Shown here one piece after another: positions 5,898 to 45,717 of a DNA stretch of 64,000 nucleotides; the stretch's first letter is position 1; every line of letters starts with the position of its first letter. The stretch comes from Verrucomicrobiales bacterium (lineage in GTDB: Bacteria; Verrucomicrobiota; Verrucomicrobiia; Verrucomicrobiales; DEV007). Where the stretch lies: positions 1 to 64,000 of the forward strand of contig JARGNI010000014.1 in NCBI GenBank assembly GCA_029213195.1. The letters run 5' to 3'. The notes beneath the pieces are model-generated. The model was not told the DNA's origin. It searched no databases and was given only the letters and a program-made list of their open reading frames with translations. Made by a program: the position numbers and the translations under genes.

Positions 5898-5909
5898 ATC
5901 ATCTTAGAT

Positions 5910-19009: not shown

Positions 19010-19495
19010 CTATTCCCCTTTCTCGATTCTTTTTCGCCTGAGAACTCGAAGCAGGCCAACGAAAAGCGAGCCGAGAAGCACCGTCCAGAAAAGGAAGATC
19101 CCCACCCATTCGGGCTCTGTCATTTCTCGGGTTTCCACACCCGTCAAATAGTGGGGAACAAATGGCAGGGCGAGAAGGAGACCGAAGGCAAGGAAGAGGA
19201 AAAACTGCGCAGTGAGAAAGAGAAGATACCGAATCAGGTAGAAATCAGTCCGAAAATAGGGAGTCGTCCTCGCCCAGAAGGGCATCACAACGAGACACAC
19301 CCACGGGAAGGCGAACATGTAGCCGATCAATCGCTGGTTTTCGAAAAGAAACGCAGTGCCCTTGGGGAGCGGTGGACCATCCCGGTTCTCCGCGGCAAAA
19401 ATGGCCCCTTGCTCGAAGCCGTATTGGAAAAGCAACCCGAGAGCAACGGAGAGAATCAAGGCGAAGCCCAACCCGATCAGCTGAAGAGTCTTCAC
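19010..19495 (-). CDS. Four-span integral membrane protein, unknown
   Basis: 161 aa from a GTG at 19495, 14 bases after the stop of the preceding gene; the frame extends upstream to 19834 but there it overlaps the TPR-like gene and has no coding character. Hydrophobic segments lie at about residues 6-25, 58-75, 85-108 and 130-150, with a short loop AAENRDGPPLPKGTAFLFENQR after the first and PFVPHYLTGVETREMTEPEW before the last. No family is recognised. By position it belongs to the long ExbB/ExbD gene run. Confidence 0.6.
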   Translation of the reverse strand: MKTLQLIGLGFALILSVALGLLFQYGFEQGAIFAAENRDGPPLPKGTAFLFENQRLIGYMFAFPWVCLVVMPFWARTTPYFRTDFYLIRYLLFLTAQFFLFLAFGLLLALPFVPHYLTGVETREMTEPEWVGIFLFWTVLLGSLFVGLLRVLRRKRIEKGE

Positions 19496-19509
19496 AACCC
19501 GGGAGGCTT

Positions 19510-19968
19510 TCAACGTTGGGTCTTGAGATCGACCAGGTCGGCTTCCAGCATGGATCGTTCTTCTTCGCTTTCGACCAATGCCAGAAGTTGCGTCGCCTTT
19601 TTCAGATGCTCGTCCCGCTCCCGGGTATTCCCGGCCGATTGGGCGGCACGAGCAGCCGCTTCGAAGGCATAGCCAAGATAGAAGGGCGCCAGGTCTTCCG
19701 TCTCGGAAAGCTCGATGCAGGCACTCGCATATTGCATTGCCTCTTCGCCCTTTTCGAGGACGGCATAAACTCGCGCCAGGGCCCACAATCCAATCGACAG
19801 GTTCTGCGGCTGGCAATCCTCTCGCTGCTTCCAATGATACAACGAGGCATGGGCGGCATCCCGCATCAGGAGCGACTCTTCTTCCGATCTCTGGGGAATC
19901 TCGAGGAGACGCCAGACCTCATTAAAACAGTGAGCGGAGAAATACTGGTGCGATTCCGATTCTGTCAT
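19510..19968 (-). CDS. TPR-like helical protein
   Basis: 152 aa, no signal peptide, so probably cytosolic. It reads as paired helices with TPR-like spacing: AAHASLYHWKQ, LSIGLWALARVYAVLEKGEEAMQYASACIEL, PFYLGYAFEAAARAAQSAGNTRERDEHLKKA. The AHASLYHW...ARVYAVL...A..YA..C.EL arrangement is shared with a widespread group of bacterial conserved hypothetical proteins, recognised only by eye. It lies 45 bases after the 515-aa TPR gene. Confidence 0.65.
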   Translation of the reverse strand: MTESESHQYFSAHCFNEVWRLLEIPQRSEEESLLMRDAAHASLYHWKQREDCQPQNLSIGLWALARVYAVLEKGEEAMQYASACIELSETEDLAPFYLGYAFEAAARAAQSAGNTRERDEHLKKATQLLALVESEEERSMLEADLVDLKTQR

Positions 19969-20013
19969 GGATTGAGCCTGTCACACCACCGCCCAGACTG
20001 AAAAGAGAAATAC

Positions 20014-21561
20014 TTACTCGTCTTTTCCACCACCGAAGGTCGCAGTGATCTGATACTTCGACTGGAGGTGAGCATGGGCTCGACTCGCCTCAGAACTCTT
20101 GGGGTAAGAGCGACAGGTCAACTGGAACGCTTTGATCGCGTTCTCCCTCTGCCCCGCCTCCTCGTAAGTATACCCAATCGAAAGGGTCGCGCCCGGGGCA
20201 TGAGGCTCGGAAGACTTGCTTTGAGAATAGAGGCTGAGGGCCTCATCCCACTGCTTGAGCCGCCGGTGGCACCTCGCCATCCGGAGGTAGTTGTCCGGAA
20301 ATTTATCGATCTGGCGATAGGTCTGGATGGCCTCCTTCCAGGCGCCCTTCCGCTCGAAGCAATCTCCGATCACCCAGAGGTAATCATTGACCCGATCCGG
20401 ATCCTCCTCGATGAGCTCCCGATACAGCTCAATCGCCTCGTCGAACTTGCTCTCTTCGCGATACATCCCAGCGATGGCACTCTTGGCCGCAACCTGGTTT
20501 TCGTAGCGACGGTAGGTTGCTCTCGCCTTCTCCCGCTCCCCAATCCCCCGATAAAAAGAAGCGATCTGTCCCAGCAATCCATCACTGACGCCGAGCATCT
20601 TCTCGATCCGTTCGTAGGTGGCGAGGACATCGGTCTTTCTTCCCGCAGCACCGTGCAGTTCGGCGATGCGATTCAAGGCCGTGCGCGCTCGCGACTGATT
20701 CCCTTCCTCGGTGAGATCGTCCGGGATCGTCGCTTCGAACCGAGCGAGCAACTTGGCCAGCATCTGGTCCCCGGCAGCCCGGGTTTCATCTTGAGAACGG
20801 AGATGACCGACCGCAGAGCGCCCATATTCAAACAGCTTCTCATCGAGTCCACCCCCCTCGTAACTCGTCTCCAATGCCTCGATTCCTCCGTCCCAGTCGC
20901 CACGACGCAGCAACCGGCTTCCCAAGTCGCGAGAAGCGGCCCGGCAGATTTCTTCGACCCCCTTGATTCGTTCGGTATCGAAGGTCAGCTCTCCAAGAAT
21001 GCGGAGAACCTCGTCCCAGTCCTGCTTCGTTTTTGCCATCTCGAGGATCTGATTTCGAGCCCGCACCTGGAGTTCCACATCGTCGACGCTTTCGATCATT
21101 TTCTGAAAAGCCACCCTCGCCTTTTCTACTTCCCCCATATCCTGGTAGGAACGCGCGATGAGATAGCTTGCCGTTTTCGCTTCCTGCGAGTCCGGCCAGT
21201 AATCGATCACGGACTGGAAACCCTCTCGGATCGCAGTGTTCACCTTGCGGAGCCTGAGCAGGCAATGACTCCACATGAGCTGGGAATAGGCCGCCGCACT
21301 GCTGCTCTCGTAGAGGGAGAGGAACTTCTCATACTCATCGAGTGCGATCTTGTATTCCCCCTCGAGATAATGCTTTTCGGCGACCTTGAGCTGATAACGT
21401 TCGACCTCTCGCATCTCGCGAAACGACTCGATCGGGATTTGCTCGAGAGGAGAAAGACGATTCGCCGCGTCGACCCCAAACGCCGCAAACAGGATTCCTG
21501 CACAAACCAGGCTCCCCCATTTTCCATCGATCCACTTCCTTCTGAAACTATTCGTTCCCAT
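20014..21561 (-). CDS. Exported TPR-repeat protein
   Basis: 515 aa. A signal segment (residues 15-33, LVCAGILFAAFGVDAA) is followed by TPR-type helix pairs through to the end: KVAEKHYLEGEYKIALDEYEKFLSLY, ASYLIARSYQDMGEVEKARVAFQKM, YRGIGEREKARATYRRYE, ECF-like RKGAWKEAIQTYRQI and IGYTYEEAGQRENAIKAFQLTC. These are scaffolds for protein-protein contact, and a periplasmic place is likely. Its start overlaps the end of the DUF4159 gene by 14 bases, implying translational coupling and a shared function with the ExbB/ExbD group. Confidence 0.88.
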   Translation of the reverse strand: MGTNSFRRKWIDGKWGSLVCAGILFAAFGVDAANRLSPLEQIPIESFREMREVERYQLKVAEKHYLEGEYKIALDEYEKFLSLYESSSAAAYSQLMWSHCLLRLRKVNTAIREGFQSVIDYWPDSQEAKTASYLIARSYQDMGEVEKARVAFQKMIESVDDVELQVRARNQILEMAKTKQDWDEVLRILGELTFDTERIKGVEEICRAASRDLGSRLLRRGDWDGGIEALETSYEGGGLDEKLFEYGRSAVGHLRSQDETRAAGDQMLAKLLARFEATIPDDLTEEGNQSRARTALNRIAELHGAAGRKTDVLATYERIEKMLGVSDGLLGQIASFYRGIGEREKARATYRRYENQVAAKSAIAGMYREESKFDEAIELYRELIEEDPDRVNDYLWVIGDCFERKGAWKEAIQTYRQIDKFPDNYLRMARCHRRLKQWDEALSLYSQSKSSEPHAPGATLSIGYTYEEAGQRENAIKAFQLTCRSYPKSSEASRAHAHLQSKYQITATFGGGKDE

Positions 21562-22987
21562 CTGCCTTTTGATTCTGATTCAGGCTGTCCAGCCACCGAT
21601 TGTATTCCACGTGAGAATAGAAAATAACATTGGTTCCCAACTGGTAGCAATACTCCCAGATTTCGCGTCTCACCTTCGCATGATCGTCTGCCCAGGCATC
21701 CCCAATATCTCCCGGATGATAGTAGGCGACGAGCCTCCCGTCGACGACCCATCCCCAGGCATCTTTCCCGCCATGCGGAGCCACATAGGGTAGGAAGGGA
21801 ATCGGATAAGGCGTGGTGTGGATCGGGTGATCGAGCGGAACCTTGATCGGTTTGACCTGGGGGAGAACCTTCTGCATCACCGCAAAAAATTGCTGCCCCC
21901 AGCCGGCACTGCCACCGTTATCGGCAAAAAGCATTCCGTGCTTGTCGGTGAGATATTCGCGCAGAACTTCGACCTCGGAATTGGATACCTCGAGATTGCG
22001 TTGCCCTGTCACATAAAGAAAAGGAGGGCTTTTCCCGATCGGGAAATTCTTTAGCTGGCTGATCCGTCGCGACTCCGGTTGCTCCGCGACCTTGTGGCCC
22101 GTTCGGATGCCATACTCGAGGAGCATATTCAGATCCGAACTCCCCGAGAAATCCTGATCCCAATCTCCTCCCTGGTATTCGAGTCGGATGAACCGGACCT
22201 TCCCTCGTTGCGTCCCCCCGGCAAACCCGGAGCCCTTCCCTTCGCCGAATCCGACCTGGTAGGCATGCTTGGTGAGCTCCTGGAACTGGAGCTTGATGTC
22301 CTCGATGGGAGGCGGATTGAAAACGATGGAACTGAAGGGGTTGATGACCAGCTTCTTCTTGATGACCTTCTGAATCTTCACCTTCTGCAGCTGAGCCTGT
22401 TCGCCTCCTCCCGCAGGCATCTCGTATATCTCCCGGCATCCGGGGAGATGGGATAGGATGAGGACGAGAAGGAAGAAGAGGAGAGTGTAGAGCAGAAAGG
22501 TCCAGAGCGACTGATCGAGCTTCTGGGATCGCTTGCGCAGATACCAGGCCTCCAGGTTGCAGAGATTCCAGACACGTTCTCCACTGCCACGACCTCCTCC
22601 GGAGGCAGCAACGGCATACTCTCGAGATTGTTTTTCAACCCACCACACCGTGACACAAAGGCCCGCGAAAAAGAGAATCGACATTCCCAACAAAGTGAAA
22701 AACCGGGCCGCTCCGCTCCAACCCATCTCGCTGGCCGCAAAGACGAGCCACTGCCAGCTCAACACAAAGACGGGGGCGAGGGACCATCGTTGATCCACCT
22801 TTCGACGATTCTGCTTTCGCCGCCGCAGATACCATCCCCAGCCCAGGGCTGTGGCCACGGTGAATCCAATCACGTGAAACCACGATGGCAGCAGATACCA
22901 GGCCGACCAGTCGCACCAGAGAAGGACCCAGACCCCCACGAAGATGAGGTAGGGTCGATTCTCGGGTTGTTTCCAGAAAGAACTCAT
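21548..22987 (-). CDS. Membrane protein with C-terminal DUF4159 domain
   Basis: 479 aa. Four hydrophobic segments lie at about residues 14-50, 70-110 and 163-180, then a Lys-rich connector (KVKIQKVIKKKLVINP), a Gly-rich stretch GFGEGKGSGFAGG, and a DUF4159 domain from about 270 to the end: VRFIRLEYQGGDWDQD, SDLNMLLEYG, FLYVTGQRNLEVS, EVLREYLTDKHGMLFADNG and the final LGTNVIFYSHVEYNRWL. DUF4159 is a class I glutamine amidotransferase-like fold that lacks proven activity and is often linked to MoxR/Bat-type or ExbD-type loci. The domain probably faces the periplasm. It is between the single-span protein and the 515-aa TPR protein. Confidence 0.85.
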   Translation of the reverse strand: MSSFWKQPENRPYLIFVGVWVLLWCDWSAWYLLPSWFHVIGFTVATALGWGWYLRRRKQNRRKVDQRWSLAPVFVLSWQWLVFAASEMGWSGAARFFTLLGMSILFFAGLCVTVWWVEKQSREYAVAASGGGRGSGERVWNLCNLEAWYLRKRSQKLDQSLWTFLLYTLLFFLLVLILSHLPGCREIYEMPAGGGEQAQLQKVKIQKVIKKKLVINPFSSIVFNPPPIEDIKLQFQELTKHAYQVGFGEGKGSGFAGGTQRGKVRFIRLEYQGGDWDQDFSGSSDLNMLLEYGIRTGHKVAEQPESRRISQLKNFPIGKSPPFLYVTGQRNLEVSNSEVEVLREYLTDKHGMLFADNGGSAGWGQQFFAVMQKVLPQVKPIKVPLDHPIHTTPYPIPFLPYVAPHGGKDAWGWVVDGRLVAYYHPGDIGDAWADDHAKVRREIWEYCYQLGTNVIFYSHVEYNRWLDSLNQNQKADGNE

Positions 22988-23002
22988 CTCAGGTGAGGGA
23001 AA

Positions 23003-23512
23003 TCACTCCAGTCCCTCGAGCAAGTCGTCGACACTCCCGTCCAATGGATTCACGTTTGCGGGAGCTTCCTTCGTTTCTCCGACTCCAAGCTGATCGGCAA
23101 TCGCCTCCGGATTGCCCAGGTCGATATCTGGTCCTTTCGGTGTTGCCTCTGCTCCCGCTGGCGTTCCTTCTTCGGAAGGGGTTTTGCCCACTTCTTCCGT
23201 TTCTTCGGCAGCAGGTTCGGAAACGGTTTCCGCAACGGCGGCCTCTCCGGAGTCGCCGCGAATCAGGCTGACGGTCCACGGGATGACCGTGAAGACGAAA
23301 ATGAAAACCGCGACCCCGATCGCAGCCTGGACGAAACTCCGAATCAAGTTGCTGTTCGCAACCGCACCGAGCACCTCCACGGGGGATTTGCCTCGCATCT
23401 TCGCGAGCCAGCCCGTGAGTTCTTGCGCTGCTGCAGAACCGTTGGCTTTGAGTTTGCGAAAGTCCTGGGCCGGACTCGCGAGGGGGGATTGATCAGGATC
23501 GGAGGCACTCAT
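23003..23512 (-). CDS. Single-span membrane protein with acidic disordered tail
   Basis: 169 aa. Residues 1-60 are polar and helical (ELTGWLAKMRGKSPVEVLGA), residues about 64-86 are one membrane span (AIGVAVFIFVFTVIPWTV), and the remainder is a Glu/Ala/Pro-rich low-complexity tail ending VDDLLEGLE. The start overlaps the stop of the second exbD by 4 bases (ATGA). A cytosolic head, single span and long periplasmic disordered tail is the topology of TonB/TolA-type energy transducers, but no TonB C-terminal domain is visible; an adaptor role is only a guess. Confidence 0.7.
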   Translation of the reverse strand: MSASDPDQSPLASPAQDFRKLKANGSAAAQELTGWLAKMRGKSPVEVLGAVANSNLIRSFVQAAIGVAVFIFVFTVIPWTVSLIRGDSGEAAVAETVSEPAAEETEEVGKTPSEEGTPAGAEATPKGPDIDLGNPEAIADQLGVGETKEAPANVNPLDGSVDDLLEGLE

Positions 23513-23937
23513 GGAGAGGGAGTAGAAGTCACAGGTTCGTCTTCGCGATTCAGGACATGGAGAAGATCTCCTCCACTCATACTGATCGCTTCGATGGCAG
23601 GTTGAAAAAGCGAAGCGGGGGTCTCCCGGTCCGCTTTGAGAAAGACACGTCGTTTTCCAGGTTCAGTATCGCCGAGGAGGGCTTCAAGTTGCCCGGGGAG
23701 AGCATCCATCGTCGTGGTTTTGCCGTTGAGATACAGTTTCTGATCGGCATCGATGACGACACTGGCAAGTGCCGCGCCACTCGGCTCGACTTCTTCGACC
23801 TGTGCCGGCTCCCACTGGAGATGACTGTCATCCACGGCCCGCGCGAGAATGACAAAAAAGATGAGAAGAAGAAAGGCGATGTCCCCCATCGCCGTCGAAG
23901 GGACATCTGCCGCAAACTTCTTCCGCGGAATCCTCAT
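23509..23937 (-). CDS. exbD: ExbD/TolR family protein, second copy
   Basis: 142 aa. It has the family form: short basic cytosolic N-terminus (MRIPRKKF), one span at about residues 17-34 with the ion-path aspartate Asp19 in GDIAFLLLIFFVILA, and a periplasmic domain containing VVIDADQKLYLNGK and RRVFLKADRETPASLFQPAIEAI. ExbD/TolR assembles with ExbB/TolQ as a proton-driven motor in the inner membrane. The gene overlaps the upstream exbD by 4 bases and the downstream single-span gene by 4 bases. A Ser/Thr/Pro tail follows the domain. Confidence 0.93.
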   Translation of the reverse strand: MRIPRKKFAADVPSTAMGDIAFLLLIFFVILARAVDDSHLQWEPAQVEEVEPSGAALASVVIDADQKLYLNGKTTTMDALPGQLEALLGDTEPGKRRVFLKADRETPASLFQPAIEAISMSGGDLLHVLNREDEPVTSTPSP

Positions 23938-24356
23938 TCGACGACGTTTACTTCCTCCTGCTCCATCTGGATAGTCACGATCCCTCCAACACTCTCAATC
24001 GCCATGGTCGTAGCGATCCACCGCTGGTAGGTCGTCTCCGCAGCACTCTTGACGATGACGACTCGATCCGACTCGGATTCCTTTCCTGCGAGAAGTTGCG
24101 AGAGTCGGGCTTCGAGCTTCTCAAACGGCAGGAGCTCCCCATTGAGAAGGAGCGTTTTCTCGGTCAGGGACAACTCGATATTCTGACTCTGATCTTCTTT
24201 TTGAGGCGTTTCCTCACTCCGTGGAATGTCCTGGGGGCGACCCGTATCCGGTTGCACTGAAGCACACACAAGAAAGAAGACGATGAGAATGAAAGCGATA
24301 TCCGGAGCCGCCGTTGCCGGCGGTTCCACGAGGAGCTCTCTTCGTTGGAGATTCAT
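23934..24356 (-). CDS. exbD: ExbD/TolR family protein, first copy
   Basis: 140 aa. Basic N-terminus, one span at about residues 18-34 with the conserved Asp19 (PDIAFILIVFFLV), an acidic linker (about 40-60), then the periplasmic domain with IELSLTEKTLLLNGELLPFEKLEARL and RVVIVKSAAETTYQRWIATTMAIESVG. It differs enough from the next gene that the two are old paralogues, not a recent duplication. It follows exbB by 28 bases. Two different ExbD/TolR proteins with one ExbB/TolQ is a recurring motor arrangement. Confidence 0.92.
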   Translation of the reverse strand: MNLQRRELLVEPPATAAPDIAFILIVFFLVCASVQPDTGRPQDIPRSEETPQKEDQSQNIELSLTEKTLLLNGELLPFEKLEARLSQLLAGKESESDRVVIVKSAAETTYQRWIATTMAIESVGGIVTIQMEQEEVNVVE

Positions 24357-24384
24357 CGTCGTATCGAGTCAAGGAAGCGTTCTT

Positions 24385-25080
24385 CTAGCGCTTGTTCAGG
24401 GTGAGTTGCAGCGAGACGGCTTCGATCAGTTCGGCCGAGGACTGCTCCACCTCGAGAACGAAGCTGTTAATCACGCTCATGAAATAGTTGAATGCCATGT
24501 AGGCCGGGATCCCCACGATGAGCCCGAAGCACGTGGTGAGCAGAGCCGTCTGAATACCCGAAGCCGCTGCCTCGACGATGTTCACTTTTCCCATCGTCTC
24601 GACGATGTTGGCGAAGGAGACAATCATTCCCTGGACCGTCCCTAGGAATCCCAGCATCGGAGCAACGCTGGAAACAGTGGCCAAAAGCGGAAGATGACGC
24701 TCGAGAGCAGCGACGACATGCACCCCGTAAGCCTCCATACTCTTGGTGACCTGCTCCTCGATCCTCTGGGGCTCGTAGCCCAATTCGTCGAGGACAAGAT
24801 ACTTTCTCAATCCGTTTCCGAGAACTGCAGCGACCGGCCCCCTGGCATTGTCACAAGTTTCGATCGCATCATCGATCTGACCTTCGGCAAGATCGGCGAG
24901 AACTTCCTCGCGGAGACGGTCGGCCCGAGTATCGAGAATCTTGAGGCTGCGCCATCGTTCGATGATCACGCCCACCGCGAGAATTCCCAGGAAGAGGATC
25001 GGCCACATGAAAATGCCACCCTGGAGGAGAAGCCCGAGGGCTCCGGATTCAAGAAAGCTCGCAGAAAGTAGGGGAGTCAT
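24385..25080 (-). CDS. exbB: MotA/TolQ/ExbB proton channel family protein
   Basis: 231 aa. Three spans: about residues 18-40, 132-158 and 175-203. The long cytosolic loop after the first span (about 45-130) is typical. APMLGFLGTVQGMIVSF and GIQTALLTTCFGLIVGIPAYMAFNYF are the conserved pore helices, with the threonines of GTV and TALLTT that pair with the ExbD aspartate. It forms the stator pentamer of a proton-motive-force-driven machine. It stands 33 bases after the 2465-aa protein gene and leads directly into the two exbD genes. Confidence 0.95.
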   Translation of the reverse strand: MTPLLSASFLESGALGLLLQGGIFMWPILFLGILAVGVIIERWRSLKILDTRADRLREEVLADLAEGQIDDAIETCDNARGPVAAVLGNGLRKYLVLDELGYEPQRIEEQVTKSMEAYGVHVVAALERHLPLLATVSSVAPMLGFLGTVQGMIVSFANIVETMGKVNIVEAAASGIQTALLTTCFGLIVGIPAYMAFNYFMSVINSFVLEVEQSSAELIEAVSLQLTLNKR

Positions 25081-25113
25081 AGAAGGATCAGTCGTGACGG
25101 GAGAAGTGGCTGG

Positions 25114-28100
25114 TTATTCGGCTTCGCTTTCGACCGCCTGAGCTTCACGCTCGAATTGCTGGAGCATTTCGGGCAAGGCGAGTCGGCCTCGAGAATATTT
25201 TGCGGCATCGGACTCCGGAAAGTCCCAGCGACAGCGATTGTAACGTTGGAAGGCGATCTCGTTCGCCCCCCCCTGGCGGAAACTTTCTCCCGCCCAGAAG
25301 AGGGACTGTGCGGTGAGGTCGTCCTCAGGAAAGCGCTTCACAAAATCGTCGAAGGCTTCACCAGCCATCTGGTATTCCTCGCTCTTGTAGAAACACTGTC
25401 CAACCCGGAACGCCATCCGCGGGGCCCACTCGTGATTCTCGAATCGCTCGAGAAACTTCTGCCCGACCTGAGCGGAAACGAGGTAGTCCTCTCGATTGTA
25501 GAAATGCTCGTTGATCCGAATCATCACGTTCGAGATCAGCGGGCTCTCCGGATAGGTCGCGGCGAGAGTGACATAGGCCTCGAGAGCTTCGTCGAGACGC
25601 TCCGCCTCCTCATAACACTGCCCGAGCTTGTACTGAGCATCGGCCGCGAGAGAGTGATCGGGGTATTGCTTCACAATCGTCTCATAGGAATCGATCGCCT
25701 CGTCCCAGTCTTCCAACTCCTGCGCAAATTGCCCTAACAAGTAAGCAATCCGGGCATTGTATTTCGGATCCTGGTAGTCTTCCTGAAGTTCGCGCAGGAC
25801 ACGCCGTCCATTTCGGAGATCTTCTTCGGCTTCCTCTTTTCGATCGAGGGCGAGATGGCTCTTGAAGAGCTCGAAGTAGCTTTCCGCGATGTGAAACTGC
25901 GTTTGAATCGCGAGGGCTTCTTCGCCAAAGATCTTCGTGAACCCACTGACATCGCCATCAGTACCGTCGGAAACGGGAATCGCGACGGTATGGAGAACTG
26001 GCTCACCCTGACTCGAAGGACGAGGGTCCTCGTACTGGATCTCGATCGGGTGACCAAAGAAGACTTCCAACTCGGAGACGGCAGGGTCGAAATTCCCAGG
26101 AACAGGCTCCGGGGTTGCCTTGAGCTTGAAGGAGCCGGTGAAGACTCCGCTGTGACTCAAGGTTTCCTCCAAGGCAACTTCCTCTCGCTCCCCCTTTTCC
26201 GAATTCACTGCTACGGTGATCCGATCTCTTTCTTCGCTCACGTCCTGATCCGGATCGGTCAACCGGAGAAACAGCCGCTCCCCCACCTGGAGGGACTCGA
26301 CGGGGTCGAGATAGGAGTTGTCGGTTGCAACCAGTTCCGCATTGCTGCGAATCCCGGCACGCCCTTCCAGGACATTCCACTCCGGGGTGGTATTCTCGGC
26401 ATCGGTGTAGGTCGCACGAATCGTCTTGTTCCCGGTGAGATTGAAAACGCCGACGAGTCCATCATCGACCGAGTCACGCCGGCCTTCCGGCTCGGCTCCT
26501 TCCTCCACTGGTTTGAGAATTCGTCCCACGAGTCCACTCTGGGAGCCGGGCTCCCGAGGAATTACAGAAGGACTGTCTTCGCCACCGAGGCGAAGCGTGA
26601 TCTGGCCAACAAACCGGCCTCGGTGGAGGGCAGGGTTGCGAACATCGGCGTATTGATCTTCCAGGTTGGAGAAGGAGGAGGAAATTCGACACGCGACTTC
26701 CACAGGAACCTCGCTGGCGACGCCTTCTTCATCGACCAGCGTAAGGGCTACGATGACTTCGCTGAGTGAATCACGAGCCGCGTCTTCATCGATCACCTCG
26801 ACCGTCAAGGGCACCTCGAAGGCCACTTGGGTTTCTTCCTCCCCGTTGGAATCAGGTAAGAACCGAACTTCCCCTGGTCCTTCTCCATCTGCTTTGGGGA
26901 TCACGATGGAGGAAAGGATGCGCAATTCTGCATCGGTCGGCTCGCGGACATAGACGACGCATTCGCGATCAATGGCATGCCCCGGGAAAGTGTTTTCCTG
27001 ATCACGATAGGAAAAATACACCTGGTCTCCCGGAGAAAGCCCGATGCGAGGAGCCCCGGATGCATCTTCGGGTCCTGCACCGTTGTCTCCCGCTTCGGAA
27101 TCGAAAGTATCAATCTCCGCCTTGAACACACCCGAGTTGGATTGCGTCTCCGTCGCGATCAAGGTCAGCAGTTCTCCATCACCGACTTGGACCTCGAGCG
27201 GAACCTGGTCTCGTTGACCAGTGCTGTCGTAGTCGAAGTCGACGATCTCCACCGTGATCCGTTCCCCCGGATCGATTCGCAGAAGATCTTTCTCGACCTC
27301 GTTGACGGTCCCATCACTGCGTCGAATGAAATCATAGGCGATGGGTTGGATCGTTCCGTTGTAGTAAGTCGCAGTCAGGCTCTGGGTGAGCGCTCGGTTT
27401 TTCGGCTCGCCACCCGTTGGCAGTTCATCGATGTAAACCGACTCGATCCGATCGCCGGGAGCAATCTCGAGGACGTTGTTGTTCGAGAGTTGCAGCAGGT
27501 CCGCTTCGGTCGGGATGTAACGAGAAGAAGGCCCTTCGATCGTGACCGAGTTGATGGCCACTGCCTGGCCGAGAAATTCATCGACCACGAACCGAACATG
27601 CCGAAGCTCCCGTTCTTCCATGGTGAACTCCCACTTCCCTTCTTCATCGACTCCCATAGTACCCAGCGGATAGGCGCCCGCCATCTCGAGGTCCGTGACA
27701 AACGCCTGTTCCAGATCGAAATCGGACCCAACAAAGGAGGACAATCGAACAGAATCAGAGTTGGGATTCTCCCGCGCCCGTAAAATCTCAGCGGGGCGAC
27801 GCGCCGAATCCGGAGTCGTGGCAAAGGCGACGATCTGGTGCAGCCCCGCTTCCAAGTAGGCATCGACTTCGAGGGAGTTTTTCACCTTCGCAGGACGCTG
27901 CAGCGGGAAGCCATTGACGATCAACGCGACGGTATCTCCCTTCAGGGCAAAACGAACCGCACCGGCTCGCGGCTGGATTAAAGTTCCCTGCCAGAGGACC
28001 GCGCTCGGATCGGCCTTTCTCTCCCTGGCTTCCTCCGGGTCGATCGGAAGCTCCGTCGCGTAACGGAGATCACTGACGACCTCGGTCGAGTGGGGGTCCT

Positions 28101-31100
28101 CCTTGGAAAGACGAACGACCCGTTCCCATTCGTGAAGATTGCTGATGTTGGTCTTCCAGACCCGGCGAGTCATCTCACGAAACTCTCCCTGTGGCAAGGT
28201 GAGGTCTTCGCGACGCGGATGCTCAGCAAGGGGGTACCAGAATCTTCCATCGTGACTGCCCACCAACCGGGCGCGCACGGGAGCTTGGTTCGCCGGATCC
28301 GGTGTCGTGACCGTACCTCGGGTCACCACGCGAAGATCCTTGAGATCCACGGAGAGCCATTTGGGGGCAAGGCCATCGGGTTGGCTGATCCACGCGGTCG
28401 AGTCATCCTTGTCGATCGCCATGAGAGGACTCTGCTCGATTGCGGTATCCGTCGCCAGCGCTCCGGCGGGAAGATCACTCGTTGCGATCATCCCCTCAAA
28501 AACAGCAGAGTGAGAACCCGTCTCCTCCAACATCACGGGAACCTCATCTCCACTCGAAGAAGTCACCTTGACCTGTACTTGGTCAGCCTCGTTCGAAAGA
28601 TCCCGGTCGAGATCGACAACACGGAGATAGATGGGGTTCCCTGGCTTGATCTCACTGGAAGGGCGCTGCACCGACCGACGAAGTTCCTCGACTTCATTCT
28701 CTCTCGCCTCGCGCTCCATCCGCTCTCGTTCCGTTTCCTCCTCTTCTTCCTCGATGAGGGAACTGGCCATCTCGAATTTCCCATCGACCGCAAGCCCGAT
28801 ATCACCCGTCGCGAGCGGCTCGAACTGAAACTCCTCTTTGAAATCCTCCGGGTAGTCGACCTGGATCAAATCACTCCCTGACACTTCAAGAACACCATTG
28901 CCCGGTTCAGGATCACCAAGGCTTGTCTCGACCTCCCCGATGAAGAGCCCTTTCCCCGCGCCACCACTGGTGATCATCGCCGTCTCTCGATCCCCACCGG
29001 GAACGGTGATCACTTCGACCGGAATTCTCGAATGCCCTCGACTGATCCCGAGATCGCTATCCTGGACCACGATGGACAGGGCGCGTCCCGGCTCGTGCCA
29101 GCGCTTCGACTCCTGCCCCAGCCTTCCCACAGTTCGCAGCAATTCAAGCTGATCGAGATAGCGTTGCTCCCCTCCATACACCTCGGCAAGGTTGTAGAGC
29201 GTCTCGTTGGCAAGGGATACATCGGGCATCGAAGTGAGCACCTCCTTGAAGATGTCACGGGCCTCTTCCGGATTCCCTTTTCGACTCTCGAGGACACCGC
29301 GAAGGAAATTTCCTCGGACCCGAATCTTGGCGACAGAACTGTTGGCAAGTTCTTCAAAAGTCTCCTCGGCCTGATCGAAGATCTTCTGTGCCATCTGGGT
29401 TTCCCCGATTCCAAACTTTGCCTCGAGAGCCTCCTCCGTGTCCGGATAGCGGTTGACGACCGTGGTGTATTCCGATCGGGCGACTTCGTAGCGCTTCGCA
29501 CGATCGTAATTCTTGGCCAGCAACAACTGGATCCGAGCCTTCTCATGATCCTGAAATCTCTCGCTCTCACTGTGGGCGACCAGCCACTTGCGAAGCATCG
29601 CCTCGGCTCGCTCCTGATTCTCGGTGCCCCCGGCCGCAATGTGAGAGTCAGCAGCGAAGGCGACGAGCTCCGTCGGCAGTTCGAGAAGATACTCGTCGAA
29701 GCGATCCTTTTGCTCGATGTAGGTCGCGAGCGCTCGCTCGTGATCCCCCAACCGCAGGTGCAGACCGATCTCCAGAACCGGTGCGATGGGGTTGTCCGCA
29801 CTCACTTCCATCCCGAGAGCGCCCATCTTGCCATAGGCACTGCGAACCAGTCGGCGCGCCTTCTCCTGGGTATCGACAGCCGCGCTTCGCATGTTCGCAA
29901 TCAAACCCGTTCCCAGCGACGCCGCTTCGGCATATTCTTCCCGCCCCATCGCTCGCTGGGCCCAGGAGAAAAGATAGCTGTAACTGGTCGAATCGTCACT
30001 CGAGCGAAGGGTCGTCTCCCGATAGGCCAGCAAGCGCTCGATCGGGGTGGATTCAAAGCCTTCCACCGAGAGAAGAGCCAGGGTCGCGACGGCACTATCA
30101 CGACCATAATTCATCGCTTCAGCTCGTTCGTAAACGATTCGCTTCTGTTCGGCAGTCCACTCCTCGTGCCCACTCGCGTGACTCACCCAGTCGCGCACAT
30201 AGCCGAAACTCCAGGGGCGGAGTCGTCTCGCGGCTCGAACTTCCACCGCATTCTTCGCGAGGGATTCAAAATTCGCGAAATCGTCGACCTTCAGATACTC
30301 GTTGGCAAGACGGCTGGCGTAGACCGCATAGTTGTCATTCTCCCTCTCGACATAAGACTTGAGGAACTGGATTCGATCCTCCGGATTTTCCATCCGATCC
30401 ACCAGGGTGAGCACTGCTCTCGCGGTTTCGGAAAAACCCGGATCCCGCTTGGCGCTTTCCTCACAATACTGAACCAGCTCGGCTTCCATTTCGAAATGCC
30501 GAAAGTGATCCAGGATGGTACCCAGGTAGTGATTCTTGATCGGATACTGGCTCTGGTTCTTTCGTATCCAGGCGACAGCTTTCTTGAGATCGTCCGCGCT
30601 TTCGATTCGCCTCGCGAGATTGACGGCGTGATACCAGGCTCCGGGATCCGGCTCGGCTTGCGTGAAAGTGAGGAGATGATCGAGAGCCCGGCGACTCTCT
30701 TCCGCTTCGCCATAAGAAGCGCCCAATTCCACCCAATCCCTCGCCACCTGGTAATCCTTGGGAAGCAAGCGGGCCAATTTGGCAAAGGAGGACAATGCCT
30801 CCGCCTTCTTGCTGCGATCGCCATAGCTCTTCAGATCCGTGGTATGCAGGCGCAGGAGGTAGATCTCCTGCTCCTGGGAAAGCTTTCTCTGCAACAACTG
30901 CTCCCGCGCTCCGTGTCCGCGCATCCTGTTCTGCAGGGCAGAACTCCAGAGGCGGGTGGTTTCCTCTTTTCGAAAAGCGTCATACTTGTCCTTGGCCCAC
31001 TTGTAGTTCTTCCTGACCACCTCGACGTCGGACTTTCGGGCTTTCTCCAGCCAACTGCCCAGCGCACCCGTGTAATTCTGATTGTGGGCATGAGCCCGCG

Positions 31101-32511
31101 CATGCTTGAGGTAGCGATCGACCTCTTGCTGAAATTCCCGATCACTGGCGGAGTTGCCCAGGATCCAACCCAACGCAGAACTGAACTCGCTTGTCGCGCC
31201 GGGCAAAGGATTGGCGTAGAGAATTTCCGAACGAAGAATCTCCTGAGCTTTCTCGGGATTCTTCATCCGATCCCGGAAGTGAGTCATCGCCATTCCGTAG
31301 TGGAGGCGATACTCATCGATGGAGTCCGAGCCGATCGTAGCCCGATAAACAGACTCCACCCTGGGCCAATACTGCTCTTCCCCCGTCCACTCAAACAAGC
31401 GCCCTGCATTGTATGCCGATTCACGAAAGACTTCCTGGAGGGCAGCCAGGGACTCCGAAAGCTTCTCGCTGCGCTGCAGGTCTGCTGCGAGGAGATACTT
31501 CATCTCCATCCGTCGAGAAACGCTCTCTCGAGGGAAGTCTTTCAGGTAAAGATCGACCGCTTTCTTGAGGTCGGAATGAGAGCCCTGGGCATCGTAGATC
31601 GAGCGAATCAGGTTTCGATAGACTTCCGAAGATTTGGCTCCTCTCGCGATCGATGATCGATAGGCTTCGATCGCATTGGCATACTGTTTCTCGCTGCGGT
31701 AGCTGTCCCCCATCGCATGAGGCAGCTCCCATTGTGCTTCCGAATCGAGAGGGACCTTCTTCTCGAGCACTTTCCGACCGATCTCGTTGCTGAACGCATA
31801 CTGCTGGCCATACGCACGTGTCTGATGGACCGCTAGGATCCCAAACATGCCTGCCGTCGTGTTGGCCGGCAACTGATCCAGAAGCACGAGGGCCATCTCG
31901 CCCATCGCCGTTGCCGCGGATGCAGAGCGAAGATCCTGGTAGAGACGAAAAGCACGAACCGCGTCATCGAGACCTTCCTTTCCCCGCTTCTCCCACGAAG
32001 CCCTGTAGTGATCGGCAGCATCTCGCCGCTGGCCCTCTCGTTCAAGGACCTGGGCCAACATGCGATGAAACTCCCCCGCCTGCTTCGACTTTGGGTAGCG
32101 ATCGACAAACTGGAGAATCGTAGCCTTGAGTTCCGCATTCCGATTCGCGATCGCGAGACCTTCGATGAGTTTCCCCATCACTTCTTCATGCTTGGGATGG
32201 CCTGCCTGCGCATTGACGAAAGTCTTTCCAGCACGAACGAGACCGAAAACCTGTCCGTCCTTGTAGTAGAGATCCACCAGTTCGAGCAGGACACGCCCGC
32301 CCTCCTCGGATCCTTCCAGGGTCTGGCGAAGTTTTGCTTCGAGATCCGCCGCTCTCTTTTCGGAAGCGGTGAGCTCGCGCGACGGAGCCTGCCCGGGAGT
32401 TGCGTCCTGCGCTGACACCGCTTGCGAGGAGAGAGCGAGCACGAGGAGAAGGAAGAAAAATCGCATGGAAGAAAGGGGAAACAGGGGAAGGAAATTGGGA
32501 ACACGCATCAC
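25114..32511 (-). CDS. Giant exported TPR protein with central beta modules
   Basis: 2465 aa. Signal peptide is MRFFFLLLVLALSSQAVSA, so translation may begin at Met16 (32466). Residues about 40-1190 are helical repeats of TPR type, clearest at the end (AKNYDRAKRYEVARSEYTTVVNRYPDTEEA). From about 1200 to 2190 comes beta structure: a module with DLDRDLSNEADQVQVKV and ETGSHSAVFEG (near 1330), a discoidin-like segment (about 1355-1435, KWLSVDL, LVGSHDGRFWYPL), a PA14-like segment (about 1500-1565), and further modules with ETQSNSGVF (near 1790), a weaker copy near 1965 and ETLSHSGVFTG (near 2118). Residues about 2195-2450 are again TPRs. It starts 3 bases after the 808-aa gene. Periplasmic or surface scaffold; exact function unknown. 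Confidence 0.88.
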   Translation of the reverse strand: MMRVPNFLPLFPLSSMRFFFLLLVLALSSQAVSAQDATPGQAPSRELTASEKRAADLEAKLRQTLEGSEEGGRVLLELVDLYYKDGQVFGLVRAGKTFVNAQAGHPKHEEVMGKLIEGLAIANRNAELKATILQFVDRYPKSKQAGEFHRMLAQVLEREGQRRDAADHYRASWEKRGKEGLDDAVRAFRLYQDLRSASAATAMGEMALVLLDQLPANTTAGMFGILAVHQTRAYGQQYAFSNEIGRKVLEKKVPLDSEAQWELPHAMGDSYRSEKQYANAIEAYRSSIARGAKSSEVYRNLIRSIYDAQGSHSDLKKAVDLYLKDFPRESVSRRMEMKYLLAADLQRSEKLSESLAALQEVFRESAYNAGRLFEWTGEEQYWPRVESVYRATIGSDSIDEYRLHYGMAMTHFRDRMKNPEKAQEILRSEILYANPLPGATSEFSSALGWILGNSASDREFQQEVDRYLKHARAHAHNQNYTGALGSWLEKARKSDVEVVRKNYKWAKDKYDAFRKEETTRLWSSALQNRMRGHGAREQLLQRKLSQEQEIYLLRLHTTDLKSYGDRSKKAEALSSFAKLARLLPKDYQVARDWVELGASYGEAEESRRALDHLLTFTQAEPDPGAWYHAVNLARRIESADDLKKAVAWIRKNQSQYPIKNHYLGTILDHFRHFEMEAELVQYCEESAKRDPGFSETARAVLTLVDRMENPEDRIQFLKSYVERENDNYAVYASRLANEYLKVDDFANFESLAKNAVEVRAARRLRPWSFGYVRDWVSHASGHEEWTAEQKRIVYERAEAMNYGRDSAVATLALLSVEGFESTPIERLLAYRETTLRSSDDSTSYSYLFSWAQRAMGREEYAEAASLGTGLIANMRSAAVDTQEKARRLVRSAYGKMGALGMEVSADNPIAPVLEIGLHLRLGDHERALATYIEQKDRFDEYLLELPTELVAFAADSHIAAGGTENQERAEAMLRKWLVAHSESERFQDHEKARIQLLLAKNYDRAKRYEVARSEYTTVVNRYPDTEEALEAKFGIGETQMAQKIFDQAEETFEELANSSVAKIRVRGNFLRGVLESRKGNPEEARDIFKEVLTSMPDVSLANETLYNLAEVYGGEQRYLDQLELLRTVGRLGQESKRWHEPGRALSIVVQDSDLGISRGHSRIPVEVITVPGGDRETAMITSGGAGKGLFIGEVETSLGDPEPGNGVLEVSGSDLIQVDYPEDFKEEFQFEPLATGDIGLAVDGKFEMASSLIEEEEEETERERMEREARENEVEELRRSVQRPSSEIKPGNPIYLRVVDLDRDLSNEADQVQVKVTSSSGDEVPVMLEETGSHSAVFEGMIATSDLPAGALATDTAIEQSPLMAIDKDDSTAWISQPDGLAPKWLSVDLKDLRVVTRGTVTTPDPANQAPVRARLVGSHDGRFWYPLAEHPRREDLTLPQGEFREMTRRVWKTNISNLHEWERVVRLSKEDPHSTEVVSDLRYATELPIDPEEARERKADPSAVLWQGTLIQPRAGAVRFALKGDTVALIVNGFPLQRPAKVKNSLEVDAYLEAGLHQIVAFATTPDSARRPAEILRARENPNSDSVRLSSFVGSDFDLEQAFVTDLEMAGAYPLGTMGVDEEGKWEFTMEERELRHVRFVVDEFLGQAVAINSVTIEGPSSRYIPTEADLLQLSNNNVLEIAPGDRIESVYIDELPTGGEPKNRALTQSLTATYYNGTIQPIAYDFIRRSDGTVNEVEKDLLRIDPGERITVEIVDFDYDSTGQRDQVPLEVQVGDGELLTLIATETQSNSGVFKAEIDTFDSEAGDNGAGPEDASGAPRIGLSPGDQVYFSYRDQENTFPGHAIDRECVVYVREPTDAELRILSSIVIPKADGEGPGEVRFLPDSNGEEETQVAFEVPLTVEVIDEDAARDSLSEVIVALTLVDEEGVASEVPVEVACRISSSFSNLEDQYADVRNPALHRGRFVGQITLRLGGEDSPSVIPREPGSQSGLVGRILKPVEEGAEPEGRRDSVDDGLVGVFNLTGNKTIRATYTDAENTTPEWNVLEGRAGIRSNAELVATDNSYLDPVESLQVGERLFLRLTDPDQDVSEERDRITVAVNSEKGEREEVALEETLSHSGVFTGSFKLKATPEPVPGNFDPAVSELEVFFGHPIEIQYEDPRPSSQGEPVLHTVAIPVSDGTDGDVSGFTKIFGEEALAIQTQFHIAESYFELFKSHLALDRKEEAEEDLRNGRRVLRELQEDYQDPKYNARIAYLLGQFAQELEDWDEAIDSYETIVKQYPDHSLAADAQYKLGQCYEEAERLDEALEAYVTLAATYPESPLISNVMIRINEHFYNREDYLVSAQVGQKFLERFENHEWAPRMAFRVGQCFYKSEEYQMAGEAFDDFVKRFPEDDLTAQSLFWAGESFRQGGANEIAFQRYNRCRWDFPESDAAKYSRGRLALPEMLQQFEREAQAVESEAE

Positions 32512-32514
32512 GAT

Positions 32515-34941
32515 TCAGAAACCAGCTTTGACGAGCGCATCGCTGATTCGCTTGGCTTCTCCTGCAACACTGCTCTCGGGGAATTCATTGATCAGCTGAT
32601 CGAACATGCGCCGGGCCTGGGATCGCCGCTCGAGCCGGAACAGGCAACGCCCGTAGTTGAAGAGAATCACGTCGAGGAAGTTCGCATCGGGGTATTCGGA
32701 AAGGACATTCTCGAAGACGTCGATGGCCCGGGAGTAGTCCTGCTTCTTGTAGTAGAAGTTCGCCATCTTGGCGACGGAGTCCCCCACCCGTCCACTGTCC
32801 GGAAACTGCTCGTAAACTTTCTGATATTCGACAAAGGCACGCTCGTAGAGTTGATCGGCCTGCTGGGAAGCCGCTTCCCCGGCCATTGTCTCGTAGCTCT
32901 CCGCGATCCCGAACTGGGCCTCTCCTTTGAGAGGGCTATCGTTCAATCGCAGGATGGAACCATAGAGTCGAATCGCATCTGGAAACTGCCCCTGTTCGCG
33001 AAACGCATCCGCCTGTTTCAGCATCGCCTCGTCGACGAAAGTCGACTCGGGAAATTCCTTCATGAGCCGTTGGCTCATCGACACGGCCAGGTTGTAATTC
33101 CCCATCGCGAAATAGGTGCGCCAAAGTTGGACGTAGGTGCTTTCGAGAATCGTTCCGCCGAGCTGCCGAGCTTCCTGCAGGACCTCCCCTGCTGTCGCCA
33201 AGGCTTCCTCGTATTTCAGATCAGCTTTGTCCTGCAGACCGAAATCCTTGTAGTGATTCCCGATATGGGTGAGCGCATCCGAAGAGCGAAGCTTGGTCTT
33301 GATACGAAGCTCGGCGTCGTCGATGTCGGTCTTCGTGACCCGGACATTTCCGAGGTTCCCTTCGATGCACTGGGCTTCCGCAACCAGTTCCAAGGGAGCT
33401 GGCCCCAGGTTGACTTTGTCGAGGTAGCGAAGCCGAAGCCGATCTCCCGGTTGAGCCTGAAGCTGTGGATCTCCCGCTTTCGGTTCGGCAGCAGCTTCGA
33501 TCACGACCGTGCCCCGGAAGACTCCGGAATGAGTGGTGAAGGGAACGTTTTCCTCGACGTCGACCGAGTCTGCAATCTCAGGCGACTCCTCGACCTCCGT
33601 AGTCTCTTCGGCTCCTCCAGTTTCTTCGGTTTGTTCGGAAGAAGCGGTGCCTTCGCCTTCTCCCTCGGCGCTGGCCTCTTCCTCAGTCGCGAGCTCCACT
33701 TCCTCGATATCGACATAGACCTCATTGAGGGTAACCTTGGTTTCATCAATCTTCCGGTAGCGCTCGACCTGGGGAACTTCATTCTCCTCGGCGAGGGGAT
33801 CGCGCTTCGCCACCGCATCGGCGATTTCCTCGTCGATCTCCGACTGGGTCTTCTCTCTCCAGATTTCTGCGAACGCCGTGATCTGGTCCGCTGCGGGACC
33901 AGTGTCGAAATCCGCATCGGTAATCTCGAGGTTGGCTTGTTTCCCAATAACGACCCCGGCAAGCGAATCTCCAAATGAGCCGTCCTTGATCTGGACGAGA
34001 GCCGTTCCTACCACGTCGACTTCAAAGGATCGCTCCTGGTCGAACTTTCGGTCGGCTGTCTGGGCATCGAGGTAGCGAACTTCGATCCGATCTCCTCCCT
34101 GCACCTCGAGACGCCCGTTCCCTGGCTCCGCGCTCGCCAGCACCGTCGGAATCGATCCTAACACCACCCGAACTTGTCGTCCGAGGGGATAGCAGATCAC
34201 TTTCTCGACATCGCCTGCCGTCGTCTCGCAGGTCACCTCGATCGTTTCTCCGGGCTCCAACACTGCGAGATCCTGGTCGCCCACCTTGACGTAGAGTCGC
34301 TTTCCCGCCTCGACTTTCTCAATCGCGGCATCTTCCCCGGTCAGGGCGGTACCCACTTTCTCGAGGGCTTCGATGGCACGACTGTAGTGCCCCAGCTTGA
34401 AATGCCCGAGTCCGATGTAGTAGTACGCCGAATTGACTTCGGGGGAAGAAGGATAGTCCTCGATGACTCGCCGCAAGACCTTGAAGCTATGACCATAGTG
34501 CCGCCCCTCGTAAAAACACATCCCGGTCTTGAGAGCGGCATCGGCCCGTTGCTCGGAATCGGAATTGCCCTCGACATCGACGGCCTCGAAGTGCCCCCGG
34601 GCCTCATCGAAAGCGCTTTTGTTTTCGAGAAGAAAATTCCCGAGACGCAGATGAGCGTCAAAACGCACCCGGCTTCCGGGATAGCGCTCGATGACCGATC
34701 TCCAGATCTCGACCGCCTTCTCAGTCTCCTCGGCTTCGAGACGGGCATCTCCGGCCTCGAGCAGTTTTCGTGCGGCTCGATCTTCGACGATGGAACCTCG
34801 GACCGGAGCCTCCTGTGCCTCCGAGTCGACCGGAGTCGAGACATACCCGCAAAGGAGCACGAGAAACGCCAGCCCAAACCAGGACTCGACCCTGTTGCAC
34901 CAGAGACCAGACCCTGTTGTTTTGACCACTTTCATACTCAT
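32515..34941 (-). CDS. Exported TPR protein with beta module, first gene of the ExbB/ExbD run
   Basis: 808 aa. A hydrophobic signal lies at about residues 22-42. TPRs follow at about 55-205 (AVEIWRSVIERYPGSRVRFDAHLRLGNFLL and so on), then a beta region at about 205-550 with GNGRLEVQGGDRIEVRYLD, a DADFDTGPAADQITAFAE strand pair, an acidic low-complexity insert (about 410-455) and TTHSGVFRGTVV, then TPRs to the end (about 570-800; VYEQFPDSGRVGDSVAKMANFYYKKQDYSRAIDVFE). The layout TPR-beta-TPR and the SGVF module are shared with the giant protein encoded 3 bases downstream, so the two are related and likely partners. A 65-base gap separates it from the DUF1501 gene upstream. Confidence 0.87.
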   Translation of the reverse strand: MSMKVVKTTGSGLWCNRVESWFGLAFLVLLCGYVSTPVDSEAQEAPVRGSIVEDRAARKLLEAGDARLEAEETEKAVEIWRSVIERYPGSRVRFDAHLRLGNFLLENKSAFDEARGHFEAVDVEGNSDSEQRADAALKTGMCFYEGRHYGHSFKVLRRVIEDYPSSPEVNSAYYYIGLGHFKLGHYSRAIEALEKVGTALTGEDAAIEKVEAGKRLYVKVGDQDLAVLEPGETIEVTCETTAGDVEKVICYPLGRQVRVVLGSIPTVLASAEPGNGRLEVQGGDRIEVRYLDAQTADRKFDQERSFEVDVVGTALVQIKDGSFGDSLAGVVIGKQANLEITDADFDTGPAADQITAFAEIWREKTQSEIDEEIADAVAKRDPLAEENEVPQVERYRKIDETKVTLNEVYVDIEEVELATEEEASAEGEGEGTASSEQTEETGGAEETTEVEESPEIADSVDVEENVPFTTHSGVFRGTVVIEAAAEPKAGDPQLQAQPGDRLRLRYLDKVNLGPAPLELVAEAQCIEGNLGNVRVTKTDIDDAELRIKTKLRSSDALTHIGNHYKDFGLQDKADLKYEEALATAGEVLQEARQLGGTILESTYVQLWRTYFAMGNYNLAVSMSQRLMKEFPESTFVDEAMLKQADAFREQGQFPDAIRLYGSILRLNDSPLKGEAQFGIAESYETMAGEAASQQADQLYERAFVEYQKVYEQFPDSGRVGDSVAKMANFYYKKQDYSRAIDVFENVLSEYPDANFLDVILFNYGRCLFRLERRSQARRMFDQLINEFPESSVAGEAKRISDALVKAGF

Positions 34942-35006
34942 ACCAGACGCCGAAGCGGGGTGCGATTCCCGAAAAGAGAATCGCTGATTTCCCGTCTCAG
35001 GTTTTC

Positions 35007-36284: not shown

Positions 36285-36331
36285 AGTGGTGGTGGTGAGG
36301 GTGGATTCAGGTGGACAATGGAAAACAAAGA

Positions 36332-44229: not shown

Positions 44230-44263
44230 AAAAATTCTGAGGTAAAAAACTATTCTTTGGAAA

Positions 44264-45685: not shown

Positions 45686-45717
45686 TCTTTCGTTACTTGG
45701 TTAGGCGGGTGGAAAAT

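Follow-up and report, generated by a model that had tools for sequence, protein, structure and literature searches.

A conserved ten-gene motor unit with tetratricopeptide repeat scaffolds, a membrane DUF4159 protein and a dedicated exported pair in Verrucomicrobiota and Planctomycetota

The stretch of Verrucomicrobiales DNA analyzed here (64,000 nucleotides, referred to as the window; contig C17 of a 5.9-Mb genome that is 95% complete) contains a conserved, co-inherited unit of ten genes on the minus strand, at positions 20014-38881. The genes encode, in order, a PSCyt1-DUF1549-DUF1553 protein, a DUF1501 protein, two tetratricopeptide repeat (TPR) proteins named TPR808 and TPR2465, ExbB, two ExbD proteins (ExbD1 and ExbD2), a one-span protein, a five-span DUF4159 protein, and a third TPR protein, TPR515. 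The unit is a motor system of the Tol/Ton/Agl type, with distinctive transducer candidates and a dedicated exported pair, and we consider it likely that the ten proteins work as one system. The best explanation for the whole is an envelope machine driven by the proton motive force, in which the one-span and DUF4159 proteins would move lectin-like TPR scaffolds, with surface glycans as the probable target; we regard that reading as about an even call.

A co-inherited unit of two modules

An earlier note on this DNA had described a run of ten minus-strand genes at 19010-34941, and its core is borne out. The open reading frame coordinates and Pfam matches (MotA_ExbB, two ExbD, DUF4159 and TPR) confirm eight adjoining genes, TPR808 through TPR515, with overlaps of 4, 4 and 14 bases and gaps of 3-33 bases. 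The ends of the run require revision. It does not start at 34941, as the genes for the DUF1501 protein (35007-36284, minus strand, 425 aa) and the PSCyt1-DUF1549-DUF1553, or PSD1, protein (36332-38881, minus strand, 849 aa), both assigned by Pfam and missed earlier, belong to it; the latter is the first gene of the unit. Two genes at the low end, one of 152 aa at 19510-19968 and one for a four-span protein, had been counted as members and are found in none of the 80 loci described below. The frame given for the four-span protein, 19010-19834, is over-long, with its first ~110 codons overlapping gene 19510-19968 out of frame, and the protein probably starts near 19500. Promoter and terminator scans returned no more candidates than about what shuffled sequences give.

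A scan of 84,980 species genomes yielded 80 named loci, labelled Verrucomicrobiales, Akkermansiaceae, Opitutia, Planctomycetaceae, Pirellulaceae and others. The block from ExbB through ExbD1, ExbD2 and the one-span gene to DUF4159 is found whole and in the same order in 56 of the 62 loci with enough upstream sequence, and for that reason the arrangement is far beyond chance. A giant TPR gene lies upstream of the motor block in 45/53 loci, and TPR515 is directly downstream of DUF4159 in 58/65. The genes are thus kept together in both Verrucomicrobiota and Planctomycetota; the earlier note had proposed this comparison, and the synteny supports its view of a dedicated motor-type complex with TPR scaffolds, outside the housekeeping systems.

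The full ten-gene order recurs in a genome of the same genus (G030) and in one of another family (G044). In a third genome (G042) the unit lies in two parts on separate contigs, DUF1553-DUF1501-TPR808-TPR2465 on one and ExbB to TPR515 on the other, and in two loci (L113 and L130) the exported and motor modules stand in reverse order. Taken with the co-inheritance described next, the split and the reversals show that the unit consists of two modules, one exported and one motor, that are inherited together. Two loci depart further from the common layout: L102 (10001-12918) has DUF4159 and TPR515 with no motor genes upstream and two sulfatase-like genes in their place, a rearrangement or an assembly fault, and L147, from Rubritalea profundi, has neither ExbB nor a giant TPR gene in its vicinity; that genome yielded no close orthologue of the DUF1501 protein either, and this copy of the unit is possibly decaying.

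We considered how closely the two exported proteins at the head of the unit follow the motor. A DUF1501 orthologue at 59-82% identity is present in 29/30 unit-bearing genomes, where no other paralogue exceeds 41%, and in well over half of the 30 it lies, by coordinates, just upstream of TPR808. Motor-linked DUF4159 is present in 5/57 relatives; the same five, and none else, have the DUF1501 orthologue (Fisher 2.4e-7 for co-occurrence, a value that ignores kinship), and exactly those five have DUF1553 orthologues (50-69%), even where the unit is split. In the wider phylum the DUF4159 protein of the window's type and the DUF1501 orthologue fall in the same 2/388 genomes, and overall the two proteins occupy the same genomes and no others (6 of about 430). 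The spread of this pattern over several genera and two phyla adds to the case for co-inheritance, and the PSCyt1-DUF1553 gene is adjacent to the unit in five genomes (G030, G044, G042, G039 and G364). On these sequence relationships we take the DUF1501 and PSCyt1-DUF1553 proteins to be dedicated partners of the motor unit.

The history of the unit can be approached through a tree of 75 DUF4159 proteins, in which one branch (96/96) parts Planctomycetota from Verrucomicrobiota. The window protein groups with Verrucomicrobiales records, and one record labelled Kiritimatiellota falls inside the Verrucomicrobiota side. An old unit that was lost many times fits this tree better than a recent transfer between the two phyla.

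The motor and its candidate transducers

The ExbB/TolQ-type subunit (24385-25080, minus strand, 231 aa; MotA_ExbB, PF01618, E 1.8e-25) is followed by the two ExbD/TolR-type subunits, ExbD1 (23934-24356, minus strand; PF02472, E 2.7e-16) and ExbD2 (23509-23937, minus strand; PF02472, E 8.3e-14). As in the TolQ/TolR-ExbB/ExbD family, the channel protein has conserved Thr residues, with Thr148, Thr182 and Thr183 invariant in 56/56 aligned sequences, and the ExbD/TolR proteins carry the proton-carrying Asp in the span. The earlier observation of Asp19 in both proteins is confirmed and extended by the alignments (67/67 for ExbD1, 70/71 for ExbD2). ExbD2 has DDSH after the span. The two ExbD proteins belong to distinct families, each with its own conservation, and this suggests that the ExbD pair is a mixed one. 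Judged by these residues, the proteins very probably form an energised motor complex.

Among the profile models, those of TolQ come closest to the ExbB protein (104.6 bits, cut-off 221), and the TPR proteins resemble repeats of the CpoB/YbgF type, so that a Tol-Pal-like role in envelope upkeep or constriction deserves consideration. Profile scans of the cassette proteins, however, found no TolA, TolB or Pal, and TonB was likewise absent from the run, as the earlier note had stated; the patchy accessory distribution, in 5/57 relatives, is also unlike that of a core envelope system. A Tol-Pal system was rejected, and a Tol-Pal-like role is distinctly improbable. A Zorya-type anti-phage system was suggested by a weak ZorA match of ExbB (16.8 bits), but the match spans only the shared channel core (profile positions 163-234 of 583) and none of ZorB, ZorC, ZorD or ZorE was matched among the nine cassette proteins scanned; this candidate was dropped as extremely improbable. 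Contig C89 of the window's own genome (G000; L201:5320-10808) carries another TPR-motor cluster, in which an ExbB gene precedes three ExbD genes and one for a 1047-aa TPR protein.

The one-span protein (23003-23512, minus strand, 169 aa; median length 158 aa across loci) consists of a juxtamembrane GKSPxExLG motif (for instance GKSPQEMLG), the span, a variable low-complexity periplasmic linker and a conserved acidic C-terminus. The terminal peptide, NPL...DDxLxxLE (for example NPLENxxDDFLKDLE), is conserved beyond the variable linker. Some TPR domains favour acidic C-terminal peptides, and we propose on this ground that the acidic tail of the arm may contact a TPR groove.

A related, more widespread class of loci, which we call type B to distinguish it from the type-A unit of the window, encodes TPR proteins, a giant TPR protein, ExbB, ExbD, ExbD, a one-span protein and DUF4159. 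In every type-B one-span protein read, the span has a His with Ser, Thr or Ala four residues before it, a TonB/TolA-like arrangement, and many type-B DUF4159 proteins carry a His in span 5 too. The type-B units (L183-L199, e.g. L183:3793-15229) are widespread in Verrucomicrobiota and often include a further two-span protein of ~420 aa; no DUF1501 or DUF1553 matches were found in the type-B stretches read. For the window unit, a TonB-type His in the arm was rejected as a candidate feature, and so was Tyr167 of the DUF4159 protein as an in-register substitute for the span-5 His; the residue counts are given below.

Another possibility is that the unit brings a large substrate through the outer membrane as TonB systems do, the place of TonB being taken by the arm or by DUF4159. 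The ExbB-ExbD motor, the TonB/TolA-like spans of the type-B relatives and the TonB component of the Fibrobacter locus discussed below are consistent with this idea. Against it, no TonB_C domain or TonB-dependent receptor is present in the unit or recurs beside it; TonB_C-type domains are found elsewhere in the genome, on C87, near a TonB-dependent receptor and beside a motor cluster, and on C64. Uptake of this kind is quite unlikely, and the possibility raised in the earlier note, that the locus is an ordinary TonB system, did not hold up.

The DUF4159 protein (21548-22987, minus strand) matches PF13709 with 109.8 bits (cut-off 25.9; E 1.6e-31). In an AlphaFold2 (AF2) model (pLDDT, the predicted local distance difference test, 80), five predicted spans are joined by a disordered linker (194-254) to a globular domain, placed on the periplasmic side in the predicted topology. 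Tyr167 in span 5 is invariant (75/75). The domain shares its fold with Hoch_4089 (4i66; VIA-align Z 23.2, root-mean-square deviation (rmsd) 1.8 over 186 residues, 25% identity), and differs from it in being joined to five spans and a motor operon. The next neighbours are class I amidotransferase-like folds (Z <10), and no von Willebrand factor A (vWA) fold is among the structural neighbours listed. Sequence inspection found no Cys at the expected nucleophile position, and catalysis of the amidotransferase type therefore seems unlikely. Two further DUF4159 proteins are encoded in this genome, a stand-alone exported one in the window (47082-47981, plus strand) and a third in a MoxR/BatA-like neighbourhood on C32 (L067).

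Exported scaffolds and partners

Three exported TPR proteins, all assigned by Pfam, make up the candidate scaffold: TPR808 (32515-34941, minus strand), with a beta domain between two TPR regions; the giant TPR2465 (25114-32511, minus strand); and TPR515 (20014-21561, minus strand), encoded by the last gene of the unit. The earlier note had described the giant protein as a TPR protein, which is correct as far as its repeats are concerned and falls short for its middle, where S-layer-like, CBM32-like and PA14-like domains are predicted between TPR ends. Conservation is lowest in the first ~850 residues and highest in aa 1000-1400 and in the C-terminal TPR region (2200-2450). A PDB sequence search with the middle of the protein gave no match, and an AF2 model of aa 1130-2230 (pLDDT 79.5) shows an array of beta domains.

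The first of these, a CBM32/discoidin-like domain at aa 1361-1663 (27523-28431, minus strand), superposes on galactose oxidase 2eid (VIA-align Z 12.5, rmsd 2.4 over 116 residues) and on the ZmpB CBM32 (Z 10.6); a weak Pfam match to F5_F8_type_C (E 7e-5, below the cut-off) agrees with the predicted fold. It is interrupted by a PA14-like domain at aa 1443-1604 (27700-28185, minus strand), poorly conserved in sequence, that resembles the Marinomonas primoryensis PA14 domains (VIA-align Z 11.6-12.0, rmsd ~3.0 over ~141 residues). Farther along, at aa 1858-2182 (25966-26940, minus strand), Foldseek and VIA-align identify an Ig-like array resembling archaeal S-layer domains, with Foldseek E 1.7e-17 to the Nitrosopumilus S-layer 8c8r and a VIA-align Z of 15.2 to 8c8k over 227 residues at rmsd 9.2.

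The DUF1501 partner has a twin-arginine-type N-terminus, and the PSCyt1-DUF1549-DUF1553 protein has a Sec-type signal and a CxxCH haem motif that is found in 5/5 full-length Verrucomicrobiota copies read, including that of the window. Proteins of the PSCyt/PSD type are numerous in Verrucomicrobia, of unknown function, and in some cases equipped with carbohydrate-binding modules (PMC5615132). That literature and the Fibrobacter parallel described below point to glycan handling, and do not prove it. Our searches found no literature match for DUF4159 with ExbB, for DUF4159 alone, or for DUF1501 with DUF1549 and DUF1553. Elsewhere in the window, at 4557-8378 (minus strand), a further pair that by inspection resembles DUF1552 and a PSCyt-type protein is not tied to the unit.

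The presence of an exported module raises the possibility that the motor drives export or surface assembly of that module itself (giant TPR, DUF1501 and DUF1553 proteins), as a secretion or S-layer-type assembly machine. Such a role would be in keeping with two modules that are co-inherited and separable, with the S-layer-like domains of the giant protein, and with a weak likeness of the TPR proteins to PorW/SprE and PorE from the type IX secretion system. However, no outer-membrane channel was recognized in the unit, and genomes that lack the unit are still rich in both families, with as many as 166 DUF1501 and 246 DUF1553 first-look candidates per genome, which means that neither family needs the unit in general. 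We regard export or assembly as unlikely.

A proposed machine and its relation to known systems

The layout of TPR genes, ExbB and two ExbD genes is already known from Fibrobacter and from published vWA loci of the PVC group; the transducers and partners differ here. The nearest experimentally touched parallel that we found is FSU_2396-2403 of Fibrobacter succinogenes, which encodes OmpA, TPR, TPR, ExbB, ExbD, ExbD and TonB and is increased on cellulose; the TPR protein FSU_2397 reportedly belongs to a complex at the cell surface that also contains cellulases and a PA14 fibro-slime protein (PMC6851124). The two loci have in common the TPR, TPR, ExbB, ExbD, ExbD order, exported TPR proteins, and PA14 proteins in the proposed complex. 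The likeness is one of layout, and the Fibrobacter locus has OmpA and TonB, with no DUF4159, DUF1501 or DUF1553 reported.

The PVC loci proposed to encode vWA force transducers combine, as the main text of that paper describes them, a TPR gene, one tolQ-like gene, two different tolR-like genes and a membrane-anchored Rossmann-type transducer (Mol Biol Evol 2025, PMC12204202). The window unit shares their TPR/tolQ/two-tolR layout, their occurrence in the PVC group and their unknown function, and differs from that description in its one-span arm without an end domain, its five-span DUF4159 protein, and its DUF1501 and DUF1553 proteins. No VWA profile matched any of the ten cassette proteins (Pfam, E 0.01 or 0.001), and the SHLS-type His span of the vWA transducers was not encountered in the arm or in span 5 of DUF4159. 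The term DUF4159 does not appear in the main text of PMC12204202; the loci in its supplement may overlap with those described here. A separate locus close to the layout given in that text is present in the same genome, on contig C101 (L200:6133-14099), with ExbB-ExbD-ExbD, then a 541-aa protein that combines a TPR region at its N-terminus with a His-containing span and a vWA domain (VWA_2 match), and then TPR966. Since the TonB-type proteins lie on C87 and C64 and the vWA locus on C101, the window unit is neither the TonB system nor the vWA locus of its genome. With Tol-Pal and TonB-ExbB-ExbD the unit has motor subunits and the essential Thr and Asp residues in common, and the type-B arms share a similar His-containing span; the window unit lacks a TolA/TonB end domain, TolB, Pal and a receptor.

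The earlier note had suggested a gliding motility machine of the Agl-Glt type. The Myxococcus Agl motor does consist of one TolQ-like and two TolR-like subunits (AglR, AglQ and AglS; PMC3169522), and large TPR proteins occur in both systems; Agl motor and Glt genes are, however, in separate clusters there. The similarity to GltC (17.8 bits, cut-off 450) and GltE (14.3 bits, cut-off 225) is generic TPR likeness far under the cut-offs, no OmpA-like or barrel Glt counterpart is present in the unit, and no GltC or GltE orthologue is among the cassette proteins; no whole-genome search was made for GltG/GltJ, GltA/B/H or CglB. The link does not extend beyond analogy, and a gliding machine is very unlikely.

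We suggest that ExbB, which is probably pentameric, would combine with a mixed pair of ExbD1 and ExbD2 into a Tol/Exb-type motor in the inner membrane; its stoichiometry and energisation, and the transfer of force from it, are inferred. The one-span protein would be an arm in the manner of TonB and TolA, anchored in the membrane and continued by a flexible periplasmic linker; in place of a folded domain at its end it has a short, conserved acidic peptide, which could lodge in the groove of a TPR domain. The DUF4159 protein, with its five spans, may be a second module attached to the motor, its amidotransferase-like domain facing the periplasm and probably lacking catalytic activity. The motor would then pass its strokes on to the exported scaffolds, namely TPR515, TPR808 and the conserved TPR region at the C-terminus of TPR2465. 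The lectin-type and S-layer-type domains in the middle of the giant protein may hold a glycan or a polymer of the surface, which could be the substrate of the DUF1501 and PSCyt1-DUF1553 partners. Among the roles listed in the earlier note (motility, constriction, secretion and polymer handling), the predicted domain content favours glycan or polymer handling, although we place that task slightly short of even chances.

Several observations weigh against this proposed glycan-handling machine. A His is present in the span of only 1/73 type-A arms, and in span 5 of the type-A DUF4159 proteins the invariant Tyr stands one position before the His column; with the His gone from both, docking at the TonB/TolA site is doubtful in the type-A unit. 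Sugar binding by the TPR2465 domains is proposed from fold similarity, which by itself shows no function, and the PA14-like domain seems to be without the Asp-Asp calcium motif of PA14 lectins. No outer-membrane barrel or lipoprotein was recognized in the unit, and most genomes of the window's own genus do not have it. The only genes that recur beside the unit in the 80 loci are sulfatase-like genes (9/80) and extra DUF1501/DUF1553 copies, both common in these genomes, and apart from the former no recurrent polysaccharide genes flank it. In the window, a sulfatase-like gene lies near the unit at 13533-15731 (minus strand); genes at 42883-46479 (minus strand) that by inspection resemble SufD, SufB and SufC would correspond to ordinary iron-sulphur assembly.

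It is a tentative and rather unlikely possibility that the unit represents a further class of motor machine, old in the Planctomycetota-Verrucomicrobiota line, in which a TPR-clamped acidic arm peptide, and no folded end domain of the TonB/TolA or vWA kind, would draw force from the ExbB-ExbD motor, assisted by the five-span DUF4159 protein, for use on a surface glycan with the DUF1501/PSCyt-DUF1553 pair. The unit adds to the range of motor-driven force transducers, alongside TonB, TolA and the vWA proteins proposed recently, and it provides a defined ten-gene set for genetics, complex structure prediction and cryo-EM. Few families of unknown function are as numerous in Planctomycetota and Verrucomicrobiota as DUF1501, PSCyt and DUF1553, and the strict one-to-one link of one dedicated pair with a proton-driven motor makes a role for them testable. 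If the proposal is true, members of these very large families would be assigned a role.

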